From Opitutaceae bacterium (GTDB lineage Bacteria; Verrucomicrobiota; Verrucomicrobiia; Opitutales; Opitutaceae), in assembly GCA_015075305.1 (NCBI GenBank), contig JABTUS010000004.1, positions 302,679 through 366,678 of the forward strand: a stretch of DNA of 64,000 nt, given 5' to 3'. Below are positions 46,485 to 57,339 of the stretch, in pieces. Numbering within the stretch: the first letter of the stretch is position 1; every line of letters begins with the position of its first letter. The position numbers and the translations under genes were made by a program. The notes under the pieces were generated by a model. It made no database searches. It was not told where the DNA came from and was given only the letters and a program-made list of their open reading frames with translations.

Positions 46485-46874
46485 ATGAATGTTGAGAATA
46501 CGCACCACGGAAAAATTCTGACCCATGGGAAGGGATCTGGAGGGATTTCGTCGGACGAAATCGAACGACGTGCCGAGGAGATCGCAGTCATTGAGGGGAA
46601 ACTGGATGGGGCCTCCGCGGATGTTCGCCGCATGGCCAGGGACGAACTGAGAGGATCAGGCCTCCTGGGCGTTTCAGAGGACGAGGGGCTGAGCACCACC
46701 TCCATCAATCGGGACCCGGGTGATCCCGTGTCCGTGCACGGTCATCAGGTGCCGCTGCTTTCAGACGATGACGAGCAGGAAACCATCGAGCGGCTTGCGA
46801 TTGAGGGGGTGGAGGAGGCGCAGCATGAACAGATGCTCGCTGACCGCCTTCGCAACCGCGGTTATTCGGGTTGA
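46485..46874 (+). CDS. Hypothetical protein, possibly DUF2934-like
   Basis: A 129-residue hydrophilic, acidic protein from the ATG at 46485. The segment SSDEIERRAEEIAVIEGKLD resembles the DUF2934 start, but the usual Trp-rich continuation is absent, so this link is weak. The C-terminal part (DDDEQETIERLAIEGVEEAQ) is helical and charged. No signal peptide. Function unknown. Confidence 0.6.
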   Translation: MNVENTHHGKILTHGKGSGGISSDEIERRAEEIAVIEGKLDGASADVRRMARDELRGSGLLGVSEDEGLSTTSINRDPGDPVSVHGHQVPLLSDDDEQETIERLAIEGVEEAQHEQMLADRLRNRGYSG

Positions 46875-46902
46875 CGGCTGGTGCGGCACGGCCGCGCTAC
46901 CG

Positions 46903-47691
46903 TCAGTGACGTGACTCTGTGGCGCCTTGTGTTGCAGGCCGCAAGTCACCTTCCCCCAGCTTGCGGCGGAAGAATGAGACCGCCATTCCCATTGTCAGGT
47001 GGGCGAGTTCCGGATCGTAGCGATAGCCCTCATCCCTCAGGAATGCGTGGGCTCCATTGAATTCATGCCAGGTGAAGTTGGCATTGGCGGCGGCAAGGGC
47101 CGCCTGTATGCGTGATCGACCCTCGGCGGGCACGTGTGGATCCTGCCGTCCGAAAATCATGAGCAGCTCGCCCTTGATCTCGCCAATCCTGTCGAGGGAG
47201 TTGTCGTTCATGCCCTTTCCGAGTCCCCGCTTGTGGATGTCCGTGGCATAAAAGCAGACTGCTGCGCTGACCTCCGGATTCATGGCGGCCCGAAAGGAGA
47301 GGTGTCCGCCAATGCAGATGCCAATCGATCCGACCTTTCCGGTTCCGCGGTCATGCGATTTCAGATAGCGGATGGCTGCGCGGGCGTCGTCGTCATAGCT
47401 GGAGAGTTCCTTCGTTGTCTTGAGGGCGTTGCCCTTGTCCGCTCCGGCCTGATCGTAAGCCAGCACGGTGCCCGCCGGCAGGAATTCATGGTAGATTTCG
47501 GGGACCGCGACGATGAATCCGTGCCCGGCCAGAAAGGCGGCGGTGCGCCGGATGGGCGCTGTAACCTGGAAAATCTCGGAAAAAAGCACGATCCCCGGAT
47601 AGCGCCCCGGGGCGGTGGGCATGTAGAGGTAGGTGCGCATAGCGCCTGTGCCAGAGGGGATGTCAACGGTGACGGGCTCGGTGATGGTCAT
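46903..47691 (-). CDS. Dienelactone hydrolase family alpha/beta hydrolase
   Basis: A 262-residue hydrolase with the DLH triad: Cys126 in GSIGICIGGHLSF, Asp184 in IFGRQDPHVPAEG and His215 in FNGAHAFLRDEGYRYD. The N-terminus (TAPGRYPGIVLFSEIFQ) and YFAT-like region match the family. DLH proteins hydrolyse dienelactone and related lactones or esters; the in vivo substrate is unclear. It begins 9 bases beyond the terminator of the upstream bacillithiol operon, so it has its own promoter or is reached by readthrough. Confidence 0.92.
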   Translation of the reverse strand: MTITEPVTVDIPSGTGAMRTYLYMPTAPGRYPGIVLFSEIFQVTAPIRRTAAFLAGHGFIVAVPEIYHEFLPAGTVLAYDQAGADKGNALKTTKELSSYDDDARAAIRYLKSHDRGTGKVGSIGICIGGHLSFRAAMNPEVSAAVCFYATDIHKRGLGKGMNDNSLDRIGEIKGELLMIFGRQDPHVPAEGRSRIQAALAAANANFTWHEFNGAHAFLRDEGYRYDPELAHLTMGMAVSFFRRKLGEGDLRPATQGATESRH

Positions 47692-47699
47692 GTGAATTG

Positions 47700-47725
47700 A
47701 AAAAGATCTGGTTCAAGTGAACCAG
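47700..47725 (-). terminator. Rho-independent terminator of the bacillithiol-type operon
   Basis: Minus strand: palindrome CTGGTTCACTTGAACCAG (47708-47725), which folds as a 7-base stem with a 4-base loop, followed by ATC and TTTTT (47700-47704). The glycosyltransferase TGA stop codon (47713-47715) lies inside the hairpin. This marks the operon end. Confidence 0.82.
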
Positions 47726-48831
47726 TATCCGGTCGAGAAAGCGACCGTGGAAAATGCGAGCAGAGCGGTGGATAGGATGGTGAAGGGAAGCTCAAGAAAC
47801 GGACGGCGCTCAACCCATGCGCCGAGAATGATGTAGAATGGGACTATGACACTCATGTATCTGGGAATCGCCTCGAGCACCCCGGTCGAGGTGTACAGCA
47901 CGACATAGGCTGCCGCCATGGCGAGATAGGCTCCGCGAATCCTCAGGAGAAGGCCGGCGCCAATAAGCACGGCCGCCAGTATCAGGGCTCCAATGAACCA
48001 GGCCTTGTAGACATCAGGCAGGGAGGCGACATTGGGATGAAGGAAAGTTTCCCAGAACGGCATCAGTTTGCGCCCCCAAAAGATCTCCGCCTTGCGGTAG
48101 ACCAGGGGATCGCCGAATTTCATCGCCATGTAGGCCATGTACGTGAGCGTTCCCGCAGCAGGCAGGCCTGTGCAGGCGAGGCGGATCCAGCAGCCCAGGT
48201 TCCGCCACGAGAAATCCTTTCGCTCCTGCGCCAGAAACTCCATCGCAAGCGGGATGACCATCAGCAGGCCCACGCTTCGCGTCAGCGCAGCCGCATATCC
48301 CGCCGCGCCCGCCAGCCACCAGCGGCGCGTGCGCGCTCCAAAGAGGCTGGCGGCCACGAAAAGGACAAAAGTCCCTTCGGAATAAATCGTGGAAAAGAAA
48401 AAACTCACGGGTCCGAACAGGAAAAAACGAACGGCCATGTCAGCCGTTCGCTCGGTGTGATCAATCCGGGCCAGGTGCCAGATCAGCATCGCCGCGCCAA
48501 ATGTGCAAAGATTGGAAACCAGGAGGCCGCCGTGGGTGAGCGACAGGACTCCCAGCGAGCCGACATGCATCAGAAGCGGATAGAGCGGAAAGAACACGAC
48601 GTTGCTCTGGTCATTCGGGATGAACTCGTAGCCGTGGCGTGCCAGCTCAAGGTACCAGTTTGAATCCCAGCGAAGAAAGGGTGCGATGAACCCGTGCTTT
48701 GCCTGCTCCGGCGCAACGAGAATGATGCCCGTGCTCAGATAACCGATGGCCAGGATCAGCAGCCGGCTGAAAACGAAGGCGCAAAGCGTGCCACGGAATC
48801 CTGGAACGGAGAGAATGGATCGCGGATTCAC
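47713..48831 (-). CDS. PIG-V-like integral membrane glycosyltransferase
   Basis: A 372-residue protein from the GTG at 48831, which begins just before the first hydrophobic helix (FRGTLCAFVFSRLLILAIGY). About ten transmembrane helices follow. FLRWDSNWYLELARHGYEFI with WDSNWY is the luminal acidic motif of PIG-V/GT-C mannosyltransferases; VVFFPLYPLLMHV and EAIPRYMSVIVPF are also typical. GT-C enzymes use polyprenyl-phosphate sugars and act at the periplasmic face. Its place 67 bases after bshA in one operon is unusual. The open frame upstream of 48831 is not conserved-looking. Confidence 0.8.
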   Translation of the reverse strand: MNPRSILSVPGFRGTLCAFVFSRLLILAIGYLSTGIILVAPEQAKHGFIAPFLRWDSNWYLELARHGYEFIPNDQSNVVFFPLYPLLMHVGSLGVLSLTHGGLLVSNLCTFGAAMLIWHLARIDHTERTADMAVRFFLFGPVSFFFSTIYSEGTFVLFVAASLFGARTRRWWLAGAAGYAAALTRSVGLLMVIPLAMEFLAQERKDFSWRNLGCWIRLACTGLPAAGTLTYMAYMAMKFGDPLVYRKAEIFWGRKLMPFWETFLHPNVASLPDVYKAWFIGALILAAVLIGAGLLLRIRGAYLAMAAAYVVLYTSTGVLEAIPRYMSVIVPFYIILGAWVERRPFLELPFTILSTALLAFSTVAFSTGYWFT

Positions 48832-48898
48832 GGTGAAACAACAATCATGAATGGATCGCGGGACGGCACCATCATGAATGCAGCCGGGTTTTTGGATT

Positions 48899-50041
48899 TC
48901 AGTTCGGTGGCGCCTGCATCGCTCGCTGGTAGACCTCAAAATACGCCGGCACGATGCGTTCTGCCGAAAATTCCGAGGCTGCCCGCTTCCTGGCATTGAT
49001 CCCGAGGCGCCGCAGCTCATTTGGGTTGGCAATCAGCGCTTCAGTCGCCCGTGCAAGCGCCGCGGCATCGCCGAACGGCCGAAGGATCCCGGAGACGCCG
49101 TCCTCGATCACTTCCGGGATGCCCCCGACCTCCGTGCTGACCGTCGGGCAGCCGAACGTCATCCCTTCGAGGATGCTGAGACAGAAGCTTTCATATTCCG
49201 AGGTGATCAGCCCAAGGTCAGCGGCGGCGAAATACTCTTCGACCGACGTCACACTCTCCAGCACGATGACGTTTTCCCGCAATTGAAGCCGTTCGACCGT
49301 CTCCTGGTATGGCTTGAAATCCCCACCGGCAATGATGAGCAGCTTGAAGGATTTCCTTGGGCGGATGAGCGAGGCCGTTTCCAGGAGCAGGTCGATGCGC
49401 TTGACCCTGCGCAGATTGGAAACGTGGATCAGCAAGGTGTCGTCGTCGGACACGCCCAGATCCCGGCGAACCTGTGCGCGGGGGCGCGTTGGAATGCCAG
49501 GCGCGAAGAAGTTTGGAACCACCGTGATGTCGTGCCCCGGTTCGACAAGCCGTGCGGTCTCATCCTTGAGAAAGCGTGAGACGGTGGTGATGGCATCCGA
49601 GTGCACCAACGCATGCCGAATGACGGGCTTGTAGGAGGCATCCCGCCCGAGCAGCATTGTGTCGGTGCCGTGAAGTGTGGCCACCACCCGGGGCCTGATC
49701 TTTTCTGGAAGAAACTCGCGCGCGAGAACCGCCGCGGTTGCATGCGGCACGGCGTAGTGGGCATGCAGGATGTCCAGACCGTCCGACTGGCAGACCGCCG
49801 CCATCTTCACCGCGAGGGGAAGGGTGTAGTCCGAAAGATTGAAGATCCCGTAGCCATGCATCGGAACCTGATGGAAAAACACGCCGGCATCCTGCAGGGG
49901 CAGGCGCACGGGGCGTTCGTAGCTGAAGAAGTGAACCACATGTCCCCGTCGTGCGAGATCGATGCCGAGCGATGTCGCCAGGATGCCGCTGCCACCCACT
50001 GATGGGAAGCAGGCAATGCCGATGCGCAGTCTTGATTGCAT
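48899..50041 (-). CDS. bshA: N-acetyl-alpha-D-glucosaminyl L-malate synthase BshA
   Basis: A 380-residue GT4 glycosyltransferase. BshA-specific N-terminus IGIACFPSVGGSGILATSLG, then HFFSYERPVRL and DILHAHYAVPHATAA, TLHGTDTMLLGRD and ISEYESFCLSILEGM-type donor-binding (SEYESFCLSILEGM). BshA joins UDP-GlcNAc and L-malate, the first step of bacillithiol synthesis. Length and start match characterised BshA proteins. It lies 24 bases after bshB1 in the same operon. Confidence 0.94.
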   Translation of the reverse strand: MQSRLRIGIACFPSVGGSGILATSLGIDLARRGHVVHFFSYERPVRLPLQDAGVFFHQVPMHGYGIFNLSDYTLPLAVKMAAVCQSDGLDILHAHYAVPHATAAVLAREFLPEKIRPRVVATLHGTDTMLLGRDASYKPVIRHALVHSDAITTVSRFLKDETARLVEPGHDITVVPNFFAPGIPTRPRAQVRRDLGVSDDDTLLIHVSNLRRVKRIDLLLETASLIRPRKSFKLLIIAGGDFKPYQETVERLQLRENVIVLESVTSVEEYFAAADLGLITSEYESFCLSILEGMTFGCPTVSTEVGGIPEVIEDGVSGILRPFGDAAALARATEALIANPNELRRLGINARKRAASEFSAERIVPAYFEVYQRAMQAPPN

Positions 50042-50065
50042 GCGGGATGCGAACGGCGGGGCGTG

Positions 50066-50794
50066 CTAGAAATGGCGGGCGCCGCGACCAAGCTGGCCCA
50101 GCCTGGCAATCAGCGTGGGATCCGCGGGGTAGAGCGCCTGGGCATATTCCACGCCGGCCCGAAGTCCGAGCAGACGGGCGCGCGTCAGTTGAAGTTCGAC
50201 ATACCGGCGGGTGCGCGACTGCGTTTCATGGGCTGCCATGGCGTTCTTCCAGAGTTCGACGATTGCGGGGTCAGAGACATCATACCAGACCGCGCCCGCT
50301 TCGGGCTGTTCCCCTTCGGGCCCGACCGCGTAGTAGAGGAGCTGCTCGATGCTGTGTGGCGGGAATTCCCTCAACTCGGCGACGCCTCCGTAGCGCGCGA
50401 GGCGGGCGCCGTCCTGCACGAGGGACCCCAGCACCGCGTGGTCAGGATGCTGGTTCGTCCTGGGGGTCGGGCAGAGCACCCAGTGCGGGGTCGTGCGTCG
50501 GATGACTTCGGCGACCGTGAGTGAGCCCCGGACCGATCGCTCAAAATGAGCATCGCCGCCGATGTTGATGAATTCGATGCCCACCCCCAGAATCGATGCC
50601 GCCCTGATTGCCTCCTCGCGGCGCCGGAGAGGCGTGCCGCTCGTGGCGGACTCGCCTTCGGAGCAGACGACAAATTGAACCGAGGTTCCCGCGCGGGCTT
50701 CACTGGCGATGATTCCGCCGACTCCGAATTCGATGTCATCGGGATGAGCGCCGAAGACGAGCAGCCGGCGGGTGTCAGAAGGGGTAGTCGACAT
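50066..50794 (-). CDS. bshB1: N-acetyl-alpha-D-glucosaminyl L-malate deacetylase BshB1
   Basis: A 242-residue PIG-L (LmbE) deacetylase. Zinc site: FGAHPDDIEFGVGGI (His, Asp, Asp) and TNQHPDHAVLG with the third His. SEGESATSGTPLRRREEAIR and the RSRTRRYVELQLTRARLLGL tail match BshB1. It removes the acetyl group from GlcNAc-malate to give GlcN-malate, step two of bacillithiol synthesis. I chose the ATG at 50794 over 50803. It overlaps the BshC-like gene by 20 bases. Confidence 0.92.
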   Translation of the reverse strand: MSTTPSDTRRLLVFGAHPDDIEFGVGGIIASEARAGTSVQFVVCSEGESATSGTPLRRREEAIRAASILGVGIEFINIGGDAHFERSVRGSLTVAEVIRRTTPHWVLCPTPRTNQHPDHAVLGSLVQDGARLARYGGVAELREFPPHSIEQLLYYAVGPEGEQPEAGAVWYDVSDPAIVELWKNAMAAHETQSRTRRYVELQLTRARLLGLRAGVEYAQALYPADPTLIARLGQLGRGARHF

Positions 50795-51551
50795 AGGCTT
50801 CATCGGAACGATCTATGGAATCTCGCGTCACGTAGATGATCCCGGGGGCGTCCGCCTTGTTGAGATAGGCCTGTTCACCCGCACCCGTTATGTAGTGCGT
50901 GCAATGCAGGACGGACTGCATCCATCGAAGCCTCGAGTCGCGGGTGGGGGAAATCTGACGCTTTGACCATGGGGTGAAGGGGAGCTCAAGATACGAATCG
51001 CCTCCCTCGTGCAAGGCAAGAGATCCATTTCGGAAACGTGCCCGCACGATTTCACCCGACAGGGGGACGTCAACGTAGCAGTCGTCGATCCCGCATGCCG
51101 ACTCGCGAACGGCGGGATCACTGGAACGGACGATTTCGATGTCATCGAGGAGGCCTTGGGACCGCATCTGTTCCAAGCAGAAATCAGCGATTGTCGCGGC
51201 GCTGTTTCGGCGAAACGCCTGCACCGCCGCTTCCGATACATAGGCAGGAAGCTGCCGGGTTGTCTGATGCTTCCAAGCCTCGGGAATCCGCTTCAGGTAG
51301 AGCGGGGAGAACTTCCTCTGAATCTTGTTCTCGAACGCGAAGTTCAGCCAGTGCAGCTCACCTGTCTTCCTGTGCCGCAGTCCGGTCTGGGTTTCCCGCG
51401 GATCGTGGTCGCTGTCATGATAGAAAAAGACAATGCGACCGCCTATCTCCCCTCTCAGGCGTCGTGCAGTGATGATCTTGGCCTGAAGGAACCGGCGGGG
51501 GAAGATCCCGCAGGGCTGCTGACCGAAGGCAATTACGGGATCGGAGCTCAT
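50775..51551 (-). CDS. Compact BshC-like putative cysteine-adding enzyme
   Basis: A 258-residue protein from the ATG at 51551, in a 4-base ATGA overlap with the symporter stop. Three features resemble BshC: IAFGQQPCGIFPRRFLQAKI at 8-27 (the GQQPG entry), FFYHDSDHDPRET at 42-54 (compare EDHD), and SPTRDSRLRWMQSVLHCTHY at 201-220 followed by ITGAGEQAYL (compare the C-terminal GGPGEIAY). Canonical BshC is about 500-550 residues and includes a long helical insertion; here that region is missing. BshC adds cysteine to GlcN-malate to make bacillithiol. Family relation is likely; activity is inference from motifs and the flanking bshB1/bshA genes. Confidence 0.65.
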   Translation of the reverse strand: MSSDPVIAFGQQPCGIFPRRFLQAKIITARRLRGEIGGRIVFFYHDSDHDPRETQTGLRHRKTGELHWLNFAFENKIQRKFSPLYLKRIPEAWKHQTTRQLPAYVSEAAVQAFRRNSAATIADFCLEQMRSQGLLDDIEIVRSSDPAVRESACGIDDCYVDVPLSGEIVRARFRNGSLALHEGGDSYLELPFTPWSKRQISPTRDSRLRWMQSVLHCTHYITGAGEQAYLNKADAPGIIYVTRDSIDRSDEAYVDYPF

Positions 51552-53263
51552 GCGGTGGCAGTGACTGGCCGCCCGGCGGGCGGAGTGCGCAAAAACGCCT
51601 GGATCAGGGCGCTGAACACCATGCATGCAAAGCAGCCGATCAGATTGTACCACAGATAGCTGATCTTGAGATTGGCGAAACAGACAAGGACGCCAGTCTG
51701 AGCCAGGATCGCCCCCCAGAACGCGGCATGCCCCTGAACCCGGCGGAGGACGAATGCGACGAGGAAAAGGCCGAGAATGACGCCGTAAAATAGCGATCCG
51801 AGAATGTTGATCGCCTCGACGAGGTTCTCGACGACGTTTGCAAAGAGGGCAAACAGGATGCCGACAACACCCCAGCCAGCAGTGGCGATCTTGGACACAA
51901 GCAATGACTGGTTGTCCGAGCCCCTTGGATTGATGACGTGGTGGTAGATGTCGATTGATGTCGTCGTGCCGAGTGCGCTCATTTCGGCGGAAAGCGAGGA
52001 AAGAGCCGCGGCAAATATCACGGCGATGAGGAGGCCGACCAGCCCCACGGGAAGTTGTTCAAGGATGAACGTGATGAAAACGTAGTCGGAGTCCTTTGTC
52101 TTCACGGCCGGATCCCTGGCGAGCAGGGTGGCCTTGGCTTCCGCGCGAACCGCCTGGGCGGCGGCGTGGGCGGAACGAACCGCGGCAAGCGCCTTTTCTG
52201 TGGCGCTGGCATCTCCGTGGGATCGGGCGTCGAGCCACGCGCGCAGCGCGGCGCGCTTTGTCTCCATGCGGTCGGAATAGCTGGTCTCGTAGGCCTTCAG
52301 GACCTCTCCGCCCTGCGCATTCACGTGATGCTTCCACGTGGTCTGATCGAAAAAGACGGGGGAGGGTGCGAACTGATAGAACACGAAGAGCATGACGCCG
52401 AGCAGGAGAATGAAGAACTGCATCGGAATCTTCATGACAGCGTTGAACATGAGCCCGAGGCGGCTTTCGCGCACCGAGGTTCCTGAAAGGTATCGCTGAA
52501 CCTGGGACTGGTCCGTTCCGAAATAGGAAAGGGAGAGAAAAATGCCCCCGAACACGCCCGACCAGATCGTGTAGCGCTGATTCAGATCGAGCGAGTAGAC
52601 GACCGCGTTCAGCTTGTCGAAGCCTGCAGCCACGGCAAAGGCCTCCCGCACCGAGACCTCCGCCGGAAGCTTCAGGAGGAGCACGGCAAACGCCGTGGCC
52701 ATGCCGACAAAGATGACAGCCATCTGGTATTTTTGTGTGATGTTGACCGCATCGTTTCCTCCGACAGCGGTGTAGACGATGGTCAGGATCCCGGTCCCAA
52801 GGATCGTCAGGTCCAGATCCCAGCCCATGACGGTGGAGAGCACGATTGCCGGGGCATAGATCGTGATTCCCGATGCAAATCCGCGCTGAAGAAGGAAGAG
52901 CGCGGCACCGAGCAGTCGCGTCTTTCCGTCAAAGCGCCTGCCCAGATACTCATAGGCGGTGAATACGCCGCTGCGGCGGTACAACGGCAGAAAGACGGCC
53001 GCCACGATGATCAGTGCGAAGGGCAGACCAAAATAGTTCTGAACAAATCCCATTCCGCTTTCGAAGCCCTGGCCAGGCGTGGACAGAAACGTCACTGCGC
53101 TCGCCTGAGTTGCCATTACAGACAGCCCGATGGTTCCCCAGCCGACGTCCTTTTGCCCGCTCAAGTAGCCCTCGAGTGTCGCGCGATTGCGCGAGCGCCA
53201 GACTCCATACGCGGCGATGCCCACCATCGAGGCCACGAGCACAAGATAATCGAGCGGCCTCAT
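51548..53263 (-). CDS. Sodium:solute symporter (SSS/SLC5 family)
   Basis: A 571-residue transporter with about 13 helices. The SSS region includes GYLSGQKDVGWGTIGLSVMA near the start, and LSYFGTDQSQVQRYLSGTSV midway, plus the late AALSSLSAEMSALGTTTSID with sodium-site Ser residues. A hydrophilic, helical Ala/Lys-rich insertion of about 85 residues lies between helices, at about 310-395 (RAEAKATLLARDPAV). Substrate unknown. It overlaps the small membrane protein by 4 bases upstream and the BshC-like gene by 4 bases downstream, so it belongs to the bacillithiol-type operon. Confidence 0.9.
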   Translation of the reverse strand: MRPLDYLVLVASMVGIAAYGVWRSRNRATLEGYLSGQKDVGWGTIGLSVMATQASAVTFLSTPGQGFESGMGFVQNYFGLPFALIIVAAVFLPLYRRSGVFTAYEYLGRRFDGKTRLLGAALFLLQRGFASGITIYAPAIVLSTVMGWDLDLTILGTGILTIVYTAVGGNDAVNITQKYQMAVIFVGMATAFAVLLLKLPAEVSVREAFAVAAGFDKLNAVVYSLDLNQRYTIWSGVFGGIFLSLSYFGTDQSQVQRYLSGTSVRESRLGLMFNAVMKIPMQFFILLLGVMLFVFYQFAPSPVFFDQTTWKHHVNAQGGEVLKAYETSYSDRMETKRAALRAWLDARSHGDASATEKALAAVRSAHAAAQAVRAEAKATLLARDPAVKTKDSDYVFITFILEQLPVGLVGLLIAVIFAAALSSLSAEMSALGTTTSIDIYHHVINPRGSDNQSLLVSKIATAGWGVVGILFALFANVVENLVEAINILGSLFYGVILGLFLVAFVLRRVQGHAAFWGAILAQTGVLVCFANLKISYLWYNLIGCFACMVFSALIQAFLRTPPAGRPVTATA

Positions 53264-53406
53264 TCAGCTAGATACGGCAGAATGCTCAGGATGGCGACGA
53301 AAAGAAGGAACATGCCGGCGACAAACAGATAGACTGCGCCCCAGGAGCGAAAGCCCGGCACTCCGGGTTGTTCGTCGGGCATTTCAGATGACTTCGGTTC
53401 CACCAT
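53260..53406 (-). CDS. 48-residue single-pass membrane microprotein
   Basis: A short gene from the ATG at 53406 to a TGA overlapping the symporter ATG (ATGA), 22 bases after the PIG-L gene. Product: an acidic, Pro-containing N-terminus (MVEPKSSEMPDEQPGVPG), then one hydrophobic helix (WGAVYLFVAGMFLLFVAI) and a short end. The overlap, the hydrophobic helix and the lack of alternative coding suggest a real protein. Small single-pass subunits accompany several SSS symporters; a similar accessory role is plausible but unproven. Confidence 0.75.
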   Translation of the reverse strand: MVEPKSSEMPDEQPGVPGFRSWGAVYLFVAGMFLLFVAILSILPYLAE

Positions 53407-53428
53407 GGTTCAAGGGGTCTTGGGCTGG

Positions 53429-55966
53429 TTACTTGCCGAGCGAAAGCAAATTGGCAAACAGCCGGTAGGCACCCGGAACCCCTGCGGGCAGTTCGCGAAA
53501 GAATGAGAGTCCGGTGTAGACGAAATACCCCTTGCCGTGCCGTGCCACCAGCAGCGCGCCCTGAAGCTGCGGCTCCCCGGCGTCGGCACAGGAAAGAATC
53601 GGCGTGAAATGGCTGTCCCATCGACTCGGAAAGTAGAGGCCGCGCTCCTGCACCCAATGATCGAAGTCCGCGTCAGAGATGAGGTTTGGTTGTGTCATCG
53701 CCGGATGATCCTTCGCGAGCACCGTGACTGCAGCCGATTCATCGACCACGCGCTCACGTGACAGGGTCAGATCGTACGGCGCAAAACGGGAGGACTTGAG
53801 TTCCGCTGTCGTATTGTACTGCACGATCACGGTCCCCCCGTTGCGCGCATACTCAAACAATGCGGGGAGAATCTGCTCAATGTCAGCCCGCGTATTGAAT
53901 GCGCGCACACCCAGCACCACGCTGTCGAACGCACGGAGTTGTTCGACAGTGAATCCCGAGGTTTCGAGCATCGTGACATCATAACCCATTCGCCGGATGC
54001 CATCGGCGACGAGATCACCAGCTCCGGGAAGATAGCCAACTGACTTTCCCTTGATGGCCAGCTTCAGGCAGACGAGACGCGCCTCGGCAGGAGGCTGCAG
54101 AAGCTGTGCGGGAATATGATCATGGCGGATGTCGATCCGACTCGTGCGAACGACCGCTCCGTCGAGGATCGCGCGAGCGCCCAGTGTTCCTGTCGCCGGT
54201 CGATCGGGAGCCGTGAGGGTGAAGGACATCCGTGCGCGCGCACCCCGATCCTTGAGATCGAAGGGCTGCGACAGCGGCTGCACCGTCCACCCGTCGGGCG
54301 CATCCAGGAGCAGGCGGCCGTTTGCTCGGGCGCGCGTGGCGGACACTTCAACCATCACCACCTTGGATGCACCAGGAGAGAGGAGCTCCAGGTCCTGGGG
54401 GAAATGAAGCGTGACAGGTGGAACAACTTGGACCTGGCGACGAATTTCCCCTCGTATGGGATCGTCGATCACCTCCACTACGGAGTCTGGCACCGACATG
54501 AGTTTCCCGTTGATTTCCAGGTCATGCGCCACCGGCATCACCGGGCTGTTTTCAGGAGTGCCTATCAGGCGGGCGTCGTCCACCCGGAAAGTGCCTTCGT
54601 CGCCCCGCTCCCGCAGCCAATACGGTGTGCTGGGCGGCGCATCCGCCGCGATTGCTGGCGAAGCCGACTGCTCTGCAAAGCGCCCAAGGGCCAGCGTTTG
54701 ATCCGCCTTGACTGCCTCACCGCTTTGCAGGAGGCGACTCCGAACCCAGCGCACGTGCACTCCCTGAGACAGACTGCGCACGAGGACCCGGAGCTTCACA
54801 GGCACGCTTTCTCCAGCCAGGACTTCGGCACGAGGTGTTGTCGCTTCAACAAACAACCCAAGACAGGCGAGTATGATCCTGTCGAGTTGGGCCCGCTTGT
54901 CCGCCAGCATCGCCGGGCTTTCGGGGTATGCCAGTTTGATGAGTTGCTCACGCACATCAAGCAGGCCGGGAATGCTGGCCGCCGGATTTCCCGGTAGAAA
55001 TGTCTTCATGACCCGCTGCATGGATTCCCCGATTCCCGCGCCTCCGGGAATGCGGGCCCAGGATGTCTCAATCCCATCAAGAATGTCGCGCTCCGCAGGT
55101 TTTCCGGCGATCAGCGTGAACACATCGGATCCTGAAGCGCGGTTGGCAACGGAGCCGAATCCCTGGCTCTTGTGCTGGCTTCTGCTGCGGGCGGCAATCT
55201 CGCCGAACGATTCTCCCAGGAGCGGATTGTAGACGCCGGAATCCACCTGGAGCGCAATGACCGGAGATTCACGGTTTCCACCCCGCATTCCCGCGGAAAA
55301 GGAATTCCAAAGCAGCCGGGTCGGCTTCCAGACCTGCAGGCCGTCCAGCGCAATCTGCTCCGGGAAGGCATCGGGTTCCCCGGCCATTTTGAACGCCTCG
55401 CCGGCAAGTATCGCGGAAGCGGTGTGATGCCCATGGGTCGTGCCTGCTCCCGCTGAAAAGCGCGTTATGATCACATCGGGTTGAAATCTCCGGATCACTC
55501 GCACGACATCCGAAAGCACCGCCGTCCGGTCCCAAATGTGCAGGGTTTCCTCCGGCGTCTTGGAGAATCCAAAATCGTTTGCCCGCGTGAAGAACTGCTC
55601 CGCACCGTCTATTCTGCGCGCCGCGAGAAGCTCCTGCGTGCGGATGACGCCGAGTTGGTCGCGCAGTTCCGGACCCACCAGATTCTGTCCGCCGTCCCCT
55701 CGGGTAAGCGAAAGATATCCGGTCGCATACCCACGGCCGCGGGCAAGGTAGGAGAGGAGCCGCGTGTTCTCGTCGTCAGGATGCGCGGCGACATAGAGCA
55801 CGCGTCCAAGCTGAAGAAACGAATTGAGGTCCTGCAGGATGGCACCCGTGTCCATTGGCATCGCCGAAACCTGCGCGCGGTACGGACTGGAGTCCGCGGC
55901 CATTGATTGGGAAAGCGTGATCACGGCGAAGGCCACGGATGCGGTCAGAACCTTGTGGGAGGACAT
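53429..55966 (-). CDS. Large secreted PIG-L family deacetylase-like protein
   Basis: An 845-residue protein. The ATG at 55966 gives a signal peptide (MSSHKVLTASVAFAVITLSQSMA); an ATG at 55987 adds seven residues. An N-terminal PIG-L domain (about 45-270) has VLYVAAHPDDENTRLLSYLA and the later His motif TTHGHHTASAI. The middle is beta-sandwich-like, and the C-terminal third contains a Rossmann-like region (AIKGKSVGYLPGAGDLVADG, FDSVVLGVRAFNTR) ending with FVYTGLSFFREL. Similar large PIG-L proteins are frequent in Bacteroidota and Verrucomicrobiota next to a symporter and bshB1. Substrate unknown; probably periplasmic. Confidence 0.87.
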   Translation of the reverse strand: MSSHKVLTASVAFAVITLSQSMAADSSPYRAQVSAMPMDTGAILQDLNSFLQLGRVLYVAAHPDDENTRLLSYLARGRGYATGYLSLTRGDGGQNLVGPELRDQLGVIRTQELLAARRIDGAEQFFTRANDFGFSKTPEETLHIWDRTAVLSDVVRVIRRFQPDVIITRFSAGAGTTHGHHTASAILAGEAFKMAGEPDAFPEQIALDGLQVWKPTRLLWNSFSAGMRGGNRESPVIALQVDSGVYNPLLGESFGEIAARSRSQHKSQGFGSVANRASGSDVFTLIAGKPAERDILDGIETSWARIPGGAGIGESMQRVMKTFLPGNPAASIPGLLDVREQLIKLAYPESPAMLADKRAQLDRIILACLGLFVEATTPRAEVLAGESVPVKLRVLVRSLSQGVHVRWVRSRLLQSGEAVKADQTLALGRFAEQSASPAIAADAPPSTPYWLRERGDEGTFRVDDARLIGTPENSPVMPVAHDLEINGKLMSVPDSVVEVIDDPIRGEIRRQVQVVPPVTLHFPQDLELLSPGASKVVMVEVSATRARANGRLLLDAPDGWTVQPLSQPFDLKDRGARARMSFTLTAPDRPATGTLGARAILDGAVVRTSRIDIRHDHIPAQLLQPPAEARLVCLKLAIKGKSVGYLPGAGDLVADGIRRMGYDVTMLETSGFTVEQLRAFDSVVLGVRAFNTRADIEQILPALFEYARNGGTVIVQYNTTAELKSSRFAPYDLTLSRERVVDESAAVTVLAKDHPAMTQPNLISDADFDHWVQERGLYFPSRWDSHFTPILSCADAGEPQLQGALLVARHGKGYFVYTGLSFFRELPAGVPGAYRLFANLLSLGK

Positions 55967-56220
55967 TGGCTTGAAAGTTTGCGGCACAGCGCAACGTGAG
56001 TCCAGAAGCCGGCGGGTATCATCACGTCGCAGTCAGAGCGGAAAATCATCCAAGATGCCTGCTGGAATAAGACGAGGAAGGAATCGCCCTTGCGGGGAGA
56101 TTTTCTGAATGATTTCTGTAACCAGGTGTGACAATGCGGCGTCTGCGCGCTCTGCCGGACCCTGGCTCCCGGGGAGGGCGGGATACAACCCAATGGACCC
56201 GTGCGCCCCAGGGCATGCCG

Positions 56221-57339
56221 TCAATCGAAAGCAGCCGGATGCACGACTGACGGAGGGGAATCCTCGATTCTCCCCGCGCTGCCGATCACGGCGCAACCGA
56301 TCTCCTGGGCGGTGACAGGCCGGGCACTTGCACCATTGCACCATTTGCTCTCGATCAGGATCAACTTGGGCCTGTCTGGAATGCCCCTTTCGTGACGCAG
56401 CAGTTGACCCGCAAGCATGTCGAGCGCCGCCGACCCTATTCCCTCGGCATCCTGAACAATTCCGGCGATTGTTCCATCAGGCTTGTCGACATCAAGATCA
56501 GCATAGGAGGCGTCTTTCGGCACCCTTCGTCCGCTCGCGCGAAGCCAGTTGAGGATGCATGCATCCGCCCCGACAACCGCATCAAGCTTGTTGCGGCCAA
56601 ACCAGTCGAGGAATGCCGTCTCTTCAAGTCTGGCAGGCTTGTGGATGCTTGCAGCATCCGACCGGCCATCATCAAACATTTGCAGCAGGTATCCGGCGGT
56701 CCACAGGCCCATCACACGGCGATCATGCTCTCGCGAAAGCGCAAGTCCGATTCTGCGGTGTCCGCCGGCGGCAAGCGCCCGCACTGCCGTGCGAGCGGAA
56801 GCGACATGATTGTCGCTCGCGCGATGAAGTCGAGGTGCGGTCAGCGTGTATGCGATCGCAACAGCGGAGAACTGGCTCCAGTCGAGCGCCATTGCGTCCG
56901 GTGCCGGAAGCGGCGCGATCATGACTCCGGTGATGCCGCGGGTGGCGATGATGTCGCTGAGCCGGGCGGCATGCCCGTCGGCATCACCGAGCCAGAAATG
57001 CTCAAGGTGATACCCCGCCGCCATCGCACGCGCAACCGCGCCTTCATGGACGCGACGAAAAAAGGGGAATCTTTTCCAGCCATCCCTGCGGGGATGTGCG
57101 GTGACCCATGCGAGCGTCACCCGTTCAGTCACCGGCTGGCCGGAGCGAATCGCGCTCATCGCCTCGGCAAGGAGCGGATTCGGCTTCCAACCCAGGTCGA
57201 GTGCAAGTTGCTGCAGTCGCGTCCGGGTGGCTGCGGGAATGCGTGGGTGATTTCGAAGAGCCATTGAAACGGCGGCGACGGAGACACCCGCACGCTGCGC
57301 GATTGAACGAAGTGAAGGACCGGATGCGTGGCTTCGCAT
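56221..57339 (-). CDS. LacI family transcriptional regulator
   Basis: A 372-residue LacI/GalR-type regulator: HTH at 9-60 (LRSIAQRAGVSVAAVSMALR, then RIPAATRTRLQQLALDLGWK) and a periplasmic-binding-protein-like effector domain (GITGVMIAPLPAPDAM, VRALAAGGHRRIGLALSREH, LDAVVGADACILNWLRASGR). It likely represses sugar genes on binding of a sugar or derivative. Target genes are not evident nearby; a candidate operator lies upstream at 57584-57597. It follows the histidine kinase gene on the same strand by 265 bases. Confidence 0.9.
   Translation of the reverse strand: MRSHASGPSLRSIAQRAGVSVAAVSMALRNHPRIPAATRTRLQQLALDLGWKPNPLLAEAMSAIRSGQPVTERVTLAWVTAHPRRDGWKRFPFFRRVHEGAVARAMAAGYHLEHFWLGDADGHAARLSDIIATRGITGVMIAPLPAPDAMALDWSQFSAVAIAYTLTAPRLHRASDNHVASARTAVRALAAGGHRRIGLALSREHDRRVMGLWTAGYLLQMFDDGRSDAASIHKPARLEETAFLDWFGRNKLDAVVGADACILNWLRASGRRVPKDASYADLDVDKPDGTIAGIVQDAEGIGSAALDMLAGQLLRHERGIPDRPKLILIESKWCNGASARPVTAQEIGCAVIGSAGRIEDSPPSVVHPAAFD

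Follow-up and report, generated by a model that had tools for sequence, protein, structure and literature searches.

Can a genome in which no BshC is recognised make a thiol of the bacillithiol type? The question is raised by an operon on the minus strand of a 64,000-nt stretch of DNA (the window) from an Opitutaceae bacterium (genome G000, 4.87 Mb; GenBank assembly GCA_015075305.1, contig JABTUS010000004.1, positions 302,679 to 366,678). In this operon, genes for BshA and a BshB1-like protein are preceded by one for a half-size BshC-like protein, here called sC, and by genes for a sodium:solute symporter (SSS) and a long hydrolase of the LmbE/PIG-L family. The available passages of a 2018 survey of complete genomes describe the phylum, as Verrucomicrobia, as having no documented or predicted low-molecular-weight thiol (PMC6282198), and it now turns out to hold a bacillithiol-type operon with a BshC-like enzyme. 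The operon, carried by bacteria from soil and water, is real and conserved across Opitutaceae-like genomes. The main new finding, missed by the initial annotation of the window, is that a protein of half the usual size, sC, stands where BshC would be across the sampled genomes. We consider it probable that the operon makes a bacillithiol-type thiol through BshA, BshB1 and sC, the last acting as a minimal BshC, and that an envelope arm is linked to this pathway.

sC takes the place of BshC

Across 288 genomes drawn evenly from Verrucomicrobiota, BshA (threshold E up to 1e-60) was found in 19, every time above the cut-off of its model. Seventeen of these genomes carry sC and no match to PF10079, the Pfam model of BshC, and the other two (G046 and G126) carry PF10079 and no sC. 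None of the 288 has both sC and BshC, none has BshA alone, and neither sC nor BshC occurs in any of them without BshA. A search of the same genomes with an sC profile recovered the identical 17, the next match standing at E 0.026, and PF10079 was not found in the window's genome. The canonical loci of G046 and G126 run bshC-bshB1-bshA, so sC sits in the slot of BshC.

The same association was seen in a family-level sample of 61 genomes, 44 of which are absent from the first sample (to which the PF10079 search was confined). BshA is present in 36 of them and sC in 37, and all 36 genomes with BshA carry sC. One genome, G351 (84% complete), has sC without a BshA match, and in G332 the two proteins are encoded on separate contigs yet co-occur. 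Searches of plasmids (E 10) and phages (E 1) gave no match to sC, which leaves the idea of a plasmid or phage gene unsupported; relatives of the long PIG-L hydrolase and of the SSS were matched in 32 and 102 plasmid records, respectively.

sC is predicted to share the catalytic core of BshC

An AlphaFold2 model of sC was built from 25 sequences (alignment A2: the window plus 24 loci, which are the 26 from a genome-contig search less L047 and L050) and reached a predicted local distance difference test score (pLDDT) of 92.6 and a predicted template modelling score (pTM) of 0.90. Its best match among solved structures is BshC of B. subtilis (4wbd; Foldseek E 1.8e-10), with a Z-score (Z) of 19.9 over 242 of the 258 residues, a root-mean-square deviation of 2.8 Å and 16% identity; class I lysyl-tRNA synthetase comes next at Z 14.3, and the remaining structures stay at or below 9.2. 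The model thus has the fold of the BshC catalytic core, and the match covers residues 81 to 520 of the 4wbd chain. No helix of the model is longer than 17 residues, so the helical coiled coil of BshC, described as required for dimerisation in the passages available from a 2015 review (PMC4360819), seems to be absent, and at 258 amino acids (aa) versus 541 sC is not a full-length BshC with its coiled-coil domain. In a comparison with BFVD, the top match of the model is a 240-aa viral protein (A0A6J4EHY4; Foldseek E 6.8e-8, 12% identity).

The conserved residues point in the same direction. We compared five BshC sequences (A3, the sole basis of the BshC side of the comparison) with an alignment of 31 sC proteins (A1), which comprises the window protein plus 30 of 42 further sC loci that were available at that stage (L009-L050); left out were L013, L016, L020, L026, L029, L032, L033, L036, L039 and L047, as well as L050 (partial) and L017 (apparent stop). 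Twelve residues shared by all five BshC, and conserved in at least 90% of the sC proteins, recur in three collinear blocks: G10, Q11, Q12 and K25; D48, H49, D50 and E53; and R207, G223, E226 and Y229. The best offsets of these blocks (79, 85 and 127) give four identities each, and the second-best offsets give 3, 2 and 2. The invariant residues GQQ, K, DHD..E and R..G..E..Y of the BshC family are therefore present in sC, which differs from the five BshC in the first of these motifs: they have GQQAG, whereas sC has GQQPCG with a cysteine, Cys14, that is invariant (31/31). In L017 (1501-2262, genome G099) the sC match crosses a TGA that is probably the gene's own stop; the profile search, with slightly shifted bounds, gave a match without a stop.

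The label 'BshC-like' given by the initial annotation is borne out by fold and motifs, though no family model flagged the window protein: a search of Pfam and NCBIfam gave no match to either BshC model (PF10079, TIGR03998). Within the 31 members, PF10079 matches two, weakly, the best being L024 (E 8.4e-5; 22.5 bits for a cut-off of 27), where residues 20-152 align collinearly with profile positions 107-245; TIGR03998 likewise matches two weakly (best E 6.5e-4). Because sC stays below the cut-offs of these curated models, we do not class it as BshC on that basis. On the evidence of the predicted structure, it is a diverged half-size relative of BshC that keeps the core fold and the key residues with nearly 300 residues fewer. 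Matches of two and three of the 31 members to DUF6980 and Peptidase_C5 (E 0.009-0.04, below cut-off) were set aside as chance.

The gene cluster is conserved

We compared 42 related loci, 26 from the genome-contig search and 16 from a second genome collection; the same species may be counted twice between the two collections, and loci whose contig ends too early were excluded gene by gene, hence the varying denominators. Conservation of gene order had been proposed as a check on the operon, and the order is indeed kept in diverged genomes, with sC identities of 53-79%. The SSS, which the initial annotation had regarded as part of the system, is co-inherited with it, its gene preceding sC in 41 of 42 loci. 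Downstream of sC, bshA is present in all 41 loci where it could be scored and bshB1 stands between the two in 36 of 40; the long PIG-L gene lies upstream in 32 of 38. The conserved core is thus made of the PIG-L hydrolase, SSS, sC, bshB1 and bshA; a gene for a small membrane protein frequently accompanies it. Pairwise distances of sC correlate with those of bshB1 (rho 0.81), bshA (0.78) and SSS (0.62), the last value possibly depressed by SSS pieces that probably barely overlap (the largest SSS distance is 1.0).

The closest sC-bearing records to G000 bear the names Opitutaceae, Verrucomicrobia or Verrucomicrobiota. Seven records that carry sC (L034, L036, L037, L038, L039, L041 and L048) are assigned by name to Rokuibacteriota, to Alpha- or Betaproteobacteria, or to Paceibacterota; their neighbourhoods, except that of L048, resemble those of Opitutaceae records, so these labels may be errors of binning or naming.

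A proposed bacillithiol-type pathway with a minimal BshC

BshA scores well above the cut-off of its equivalog model (TIGR03999, 273.7 bits; score in Table 1) and matches the solved N-acetylglucosamine-malate (GlcNAc-malate) synthase 5d00 at E 1.7e-79, as well as 2jjm, named merely a glycosyltransferase, at E 1.5e-84. The solved chain closest to BshB1 is a GlcNAc-malate deacetylase (6p2t, E 1.2e-20). In the proposed pathway, BshA would join GlcNAc and malate, BshB1 would deacetylate the product, and sC would couple the free amine of glucosaminyl-malate to cysteine or a comparable amino acid. We infer the reaction of sC, and cysteine as its substrate, from the fold, the motifs, the co-occurrence and the complementarity with BshC.

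The operon resembles the BshA-BshB-BshC system of bacillithiol in having BshA, a BshB1-like deacetylase and a cysteine-adding slot before bshB1-bshA, but it differs in having a 258-aa relative instead of canonical BshC and in its linked SSS and PIG-L genes. Within about 9 kb of the canonical loci L079 and L080, no relative of the SSS or PIG-L was found. The N-methyl-bacillithiol system of Chlorobi (bshA-C plus nmbA), as presented in the available passages of PMC6282198, is similar in that bshA/B together with an enzyme that adds cysteine would be expected to yield a bacillithiol-derived thiol, but the operon has no methyltransferase among its genes. By eye, a methyltransferase-like frame that may be NmbA stands directly before canonical bshC in L051 (738-1493) and L052 (699-1493).

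In the passages at hand, the ortholog search of PMC6282198 required similar length and PMC12719100 in addition more than 80% coverage of BshC, so both should miss sC; G046 and G126, with their canonical BshC, indicate that a small number of Verrucomicrobiota would be expected to pass a survey of this kind. The string "Verrucomicrobi" is absent from the main text of PMC12719100 as available, and PMC6282198 urges work on partial thiol pathways in the passages seen. Among the matches listed from open-licence literature, mostly titles and the starts of abstracts, there is no description of a short BshC or of a symporter linked to bacillithiol. According to the same part of the 2015 review (PMC4360819), no in vitro demonstration of BshC activity existed at that time and the mechanism of the enzyme was unknown; a natural half-size BshC-like protein with the same key residues offers a handle on that mechanism. 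In B. subtilis, a laboratory strain deleted for bshC is without bacillithiol and can be complemented with an ectopic copy of the gene (PMC12288471).

A putative envelope arm

The long PIG-L hydrolase has a hydrophobic N-terminus (judged by eye), an LmbE domain at about residues 52-302, a beta-sandwich region and a C-terminal STM3548-like domain. A hydrophobic stretch precedes the LmbE domain wherever the start of the protein is visible (again by eye), and the hydrolase is probably exported. Of the 32 copies identified, all but three (29) carry the motifs AHPDDE and HG[HQ]H; the frames scanned in the other three, L036, L038 and L041, contain no LmbE motif. Like other members of the LmbE superfamily (Mca, MshB, BshB), the protein combines the LmbE fold with metal-site motifs, and it carries the AHPDD/HxxH motif of the Mca and Bca amidases. 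It differs from them in its length of 845 aa, its hydrophobic N-terminus and its extra domains, and its best NCBIfam match, Mca (TIGR03446), is far below the equivalog cut-off (46.8 bits versus 277.15). In a structural model (pLDDT 76.7) built from the window and 13 loci (A4), the LmbE domain matches MshB and LnmX best, with practically equal scores (Z 20.3-20.4), followed by diacetylchitobiose deacetylases and BshB, and the C-terminus resembles STM3548 (Z 11.2).

The symporter exceeds the cut-off of its transporter family model (TIGR00813, 184 bits; Table 1). Transporters of multivitamins, monocarboxylates, iodide and glucose are among its solved relatives, and because such different transporters all match, no one substrate is indicated. 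The 48-aa protein encoded beside it aligns with six relatives at 36-65% identity but went undetected in some loci; it could be a minor partner or subunit of the SSS transporter.

Mca and Bca cleave the amide of thiol conjugates, according to the available part of PMC4360819. By analogy, the PIG-L hydrolase would most likely cut the amide of the exported thiol or of its conjugates, and the SSS, with its small partner, would take back a piece, either glucosaminyl-malate or a cysteine conjugate. We infer both the export of the hydrolase and the cycle as a whole, in which an amidase or deacetylase would be coupled to a salvage symporter; the proposed cycle would parallel that of glutathione in the periplasm. 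The complete scheme, in which a half-size BshC-like enzyme with Cys14 makes a thiol that an exported amidase and a symporter cycle through the envelope, is a tentative proposal that we hold with much less assurance than the biosynthetic pathway. If true, the linked symporter and hydrolase would offer a genetic entry to thiol export and salvage, and a minimal BshC-like enzyme with envelope cycling would represent an undescribed thiol economy in Verrucomicrobiota.

Weighing the alternatives

A number of observations weigh against a bacillithiol-type pathway with a linked envelope arm. The first concern sequence comparisons of sC. Its profile gave no match to the sequences of the PDB. An hhalign comparison of the 31 sC proteins with the five BshC reached E 0.0014 and a probability of 18%, with the C-terminal motif alone; hand-cut blocks reached probabilities of 10% (N block) and 71% (C block). 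The five BshC have 47 invariant columns, of which 12 were recovered, in hand-picked blocks. The hhalign scores nonetheless exceed those of every column shuffle (0/100 for the whole protein and 0/200 for each of the N and C blocks); the blocks used here and in the count of offsets were chosen after the motifs had been seen, which does not affect the whole-protein shuffle in this way.

The second concern the deacetylase. The BshB1 score of 112.9 bits is below the curated cut-off of TIGR04001 (182.5), and bshB1 is missing in 4 of the 40 loci with sufficient flank. In L036, which ends too early to be counted, bshA directly follows sC and there is no bshB1. At an E of 0.001, G257 (the genome of L082) has no BshB1-like protein and G274 (that of L085) has weak ones only. 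The loci with no bshB1 between sC and bshA are L082, L085, L036, L039 and L041. Four of these (L036, L041, L082 and L085), in which upstream sequence is present, have the long PIG-L gene, whole or partial. Its presence where bshB1 is missing suggests that the long PIG-L may supply the deacetylase in some species, the numbers being very small.

The third concern the partners expected of the thiol and of the arm. Bacilliredoxin (PF06491) was found in none of 62 order-level genomes, which include the sC-bearing G000, G010, G039 and G048, and no YpdA (TIGR04018) above the cut-off was found in these 62, four of which are known to have sC; TIGR04018 gave weak generic matches in 61 of them. The partners BrxA/B and YpdA do not accompany every bacillithiol pathway. 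Among 14 controls PF06491 was present in B. subtilis alone, and Thermus and Deinobacterium are likewise without it. As for the arm, L048 encodes sC-bshB1-bshA but no SSS or PIG-L, and the long PIG-L is missing in 6 of 38 loci (L048 and five others), so the envelope arm is not obligatory.

We also considered glutathione as the complementary thiol of genomes that lack sC. GCS2 (PF04107) occurs in 12 genomes of the family sample of 61, namely 7 of the 37 that carry sC and 5 of the 24 that do not. These counts led us to reject the idea, since sC is not tied to a lack of GCS2. PF04107 has no match in the window's genome; the search did not extend to the second family of glutamate-cysteine ligases.

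Three other explanations of the operon were weighed. The one that survives best, though we find it unlikely, is that sC ligates a different amino acid to glucosaminyl-malate, giving a product that is not bacillithiol and perhaps no thiol. It would fit the strong divergence of sC from BshC (16% identity over the structural alignment), the Cys14 of GQQPCG, invariant in all 31 proteins, where the five BshC have GQQAG, and the failure to find bacilliredoxin or an above-cut-off YpdA in those four of the 62 searched genomes that are known to carry sC. However, residues invariant in BshC are in register in sC, and wherever one of the 288 genomes has BshA but no BshC, sC stands in the place of BshC.

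A considerably less credible alternative is that the operon takes up and degrades foreign glucosaminyl-malate or thiol glycosides, chiefly through the SSS and the PIG-L hydrolase, with BshA, BshB1 and sC engaged in scavenging. The probably exported hydrolase and the symporter at the head of the operon would suit such a role. However, BshA is above the cut-off of a biosynthetic equivalog model, and the trio sC-bshB1-bshA occurs in L048 with both SSS and PIG-L missing, and in five other loci with PIG-L missing.

The version of the initial annotation, in which a PIG-V-like membrane glycosyltransferase modifies the thiol or its precursor, is the least probable of all: the gene is co-directional, follows bshA after 67 bases and has a terminator-like site behind it, but it was not found in 33 of the 37 loci with enough flank. 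Adjoining the operon in 4 of 37 loci, PIG-V was rejected as a member of the system, and glycosylation of the thiol is left without comparative support. The broader proposal of an undescribed thiol system in Verrucomicrobiota is supported for the bacillithiol-type operon, the transporter and the conserved order, and is not supported for glycosylation by PIG-V.

Organisation of the locus

The seven minus-strand reading frames reported for the window are all present as described (Table 1). By these coordinates, neighbouring frames overlap by 4, 4 and 29 bases at three junctions and are separated by 22, 24 and 67 bases at the other three, in line with the three short overlaps and the gaps of 22-67 bases reported earlier.

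Table 1. Features of the operon, in window coordinates and in the order of transcription.
Feature	Position	Strand	Details
Long LmbE/PIG-L hydrolase	53429..55966	-	845 aa; PF02585 E 1.5e-17
Small membrane protein	53260..53406	-	48 aa, one hydrophobic stretch; no Pfam or NCBIfam match
SSS sodium:solute symporter	51548..53263	-	571 aa; TIGR00813 210.2 bits
sC, half-size BshC-like protein	50775..51551	-	258 aa; from predicted fold, motifs and distribution
BshB1-like GlcNAc-malate deacetylase	50066..50803	-	245 aa; TIGR04001 E 1.8e-32, below cut-off
BshA, GlcNAc-malate synthase	48899..50041	-	380 aa; TIGR03999 383.9 bits
PIG-V-like membrane glycosyltransferase	47713..48831	-	PF04188 E 6.2e-10; co-directional, not a conserved operon member
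Terminator-like hairpin	47708..47725	-	consensus scan; overlaps the PIG-V stop codon

Separate promoters between these genes would have spoken against a single operon. A consensus scan, which is weak evidence, found no sigma-70-like site in 46800-56400, where 2.2 are expected from shuffles. The terminator reported over the last stop codon was recovered by the same kind of scan, equally weak as evidence, as a hairpin at 47725-47708 that overlaps the stop codon of PIG-V; the scanned region holds 12 terminator-like sites, compared with 8.3 +/- 2.9 in shuffles, and the hairpin is weak on its own. Beyond the operon, a LacI gene and a histidine kinase gene upstream and a dienelactone hydrolase gene downstream keep their place in some loci, mostly the most similar ones.

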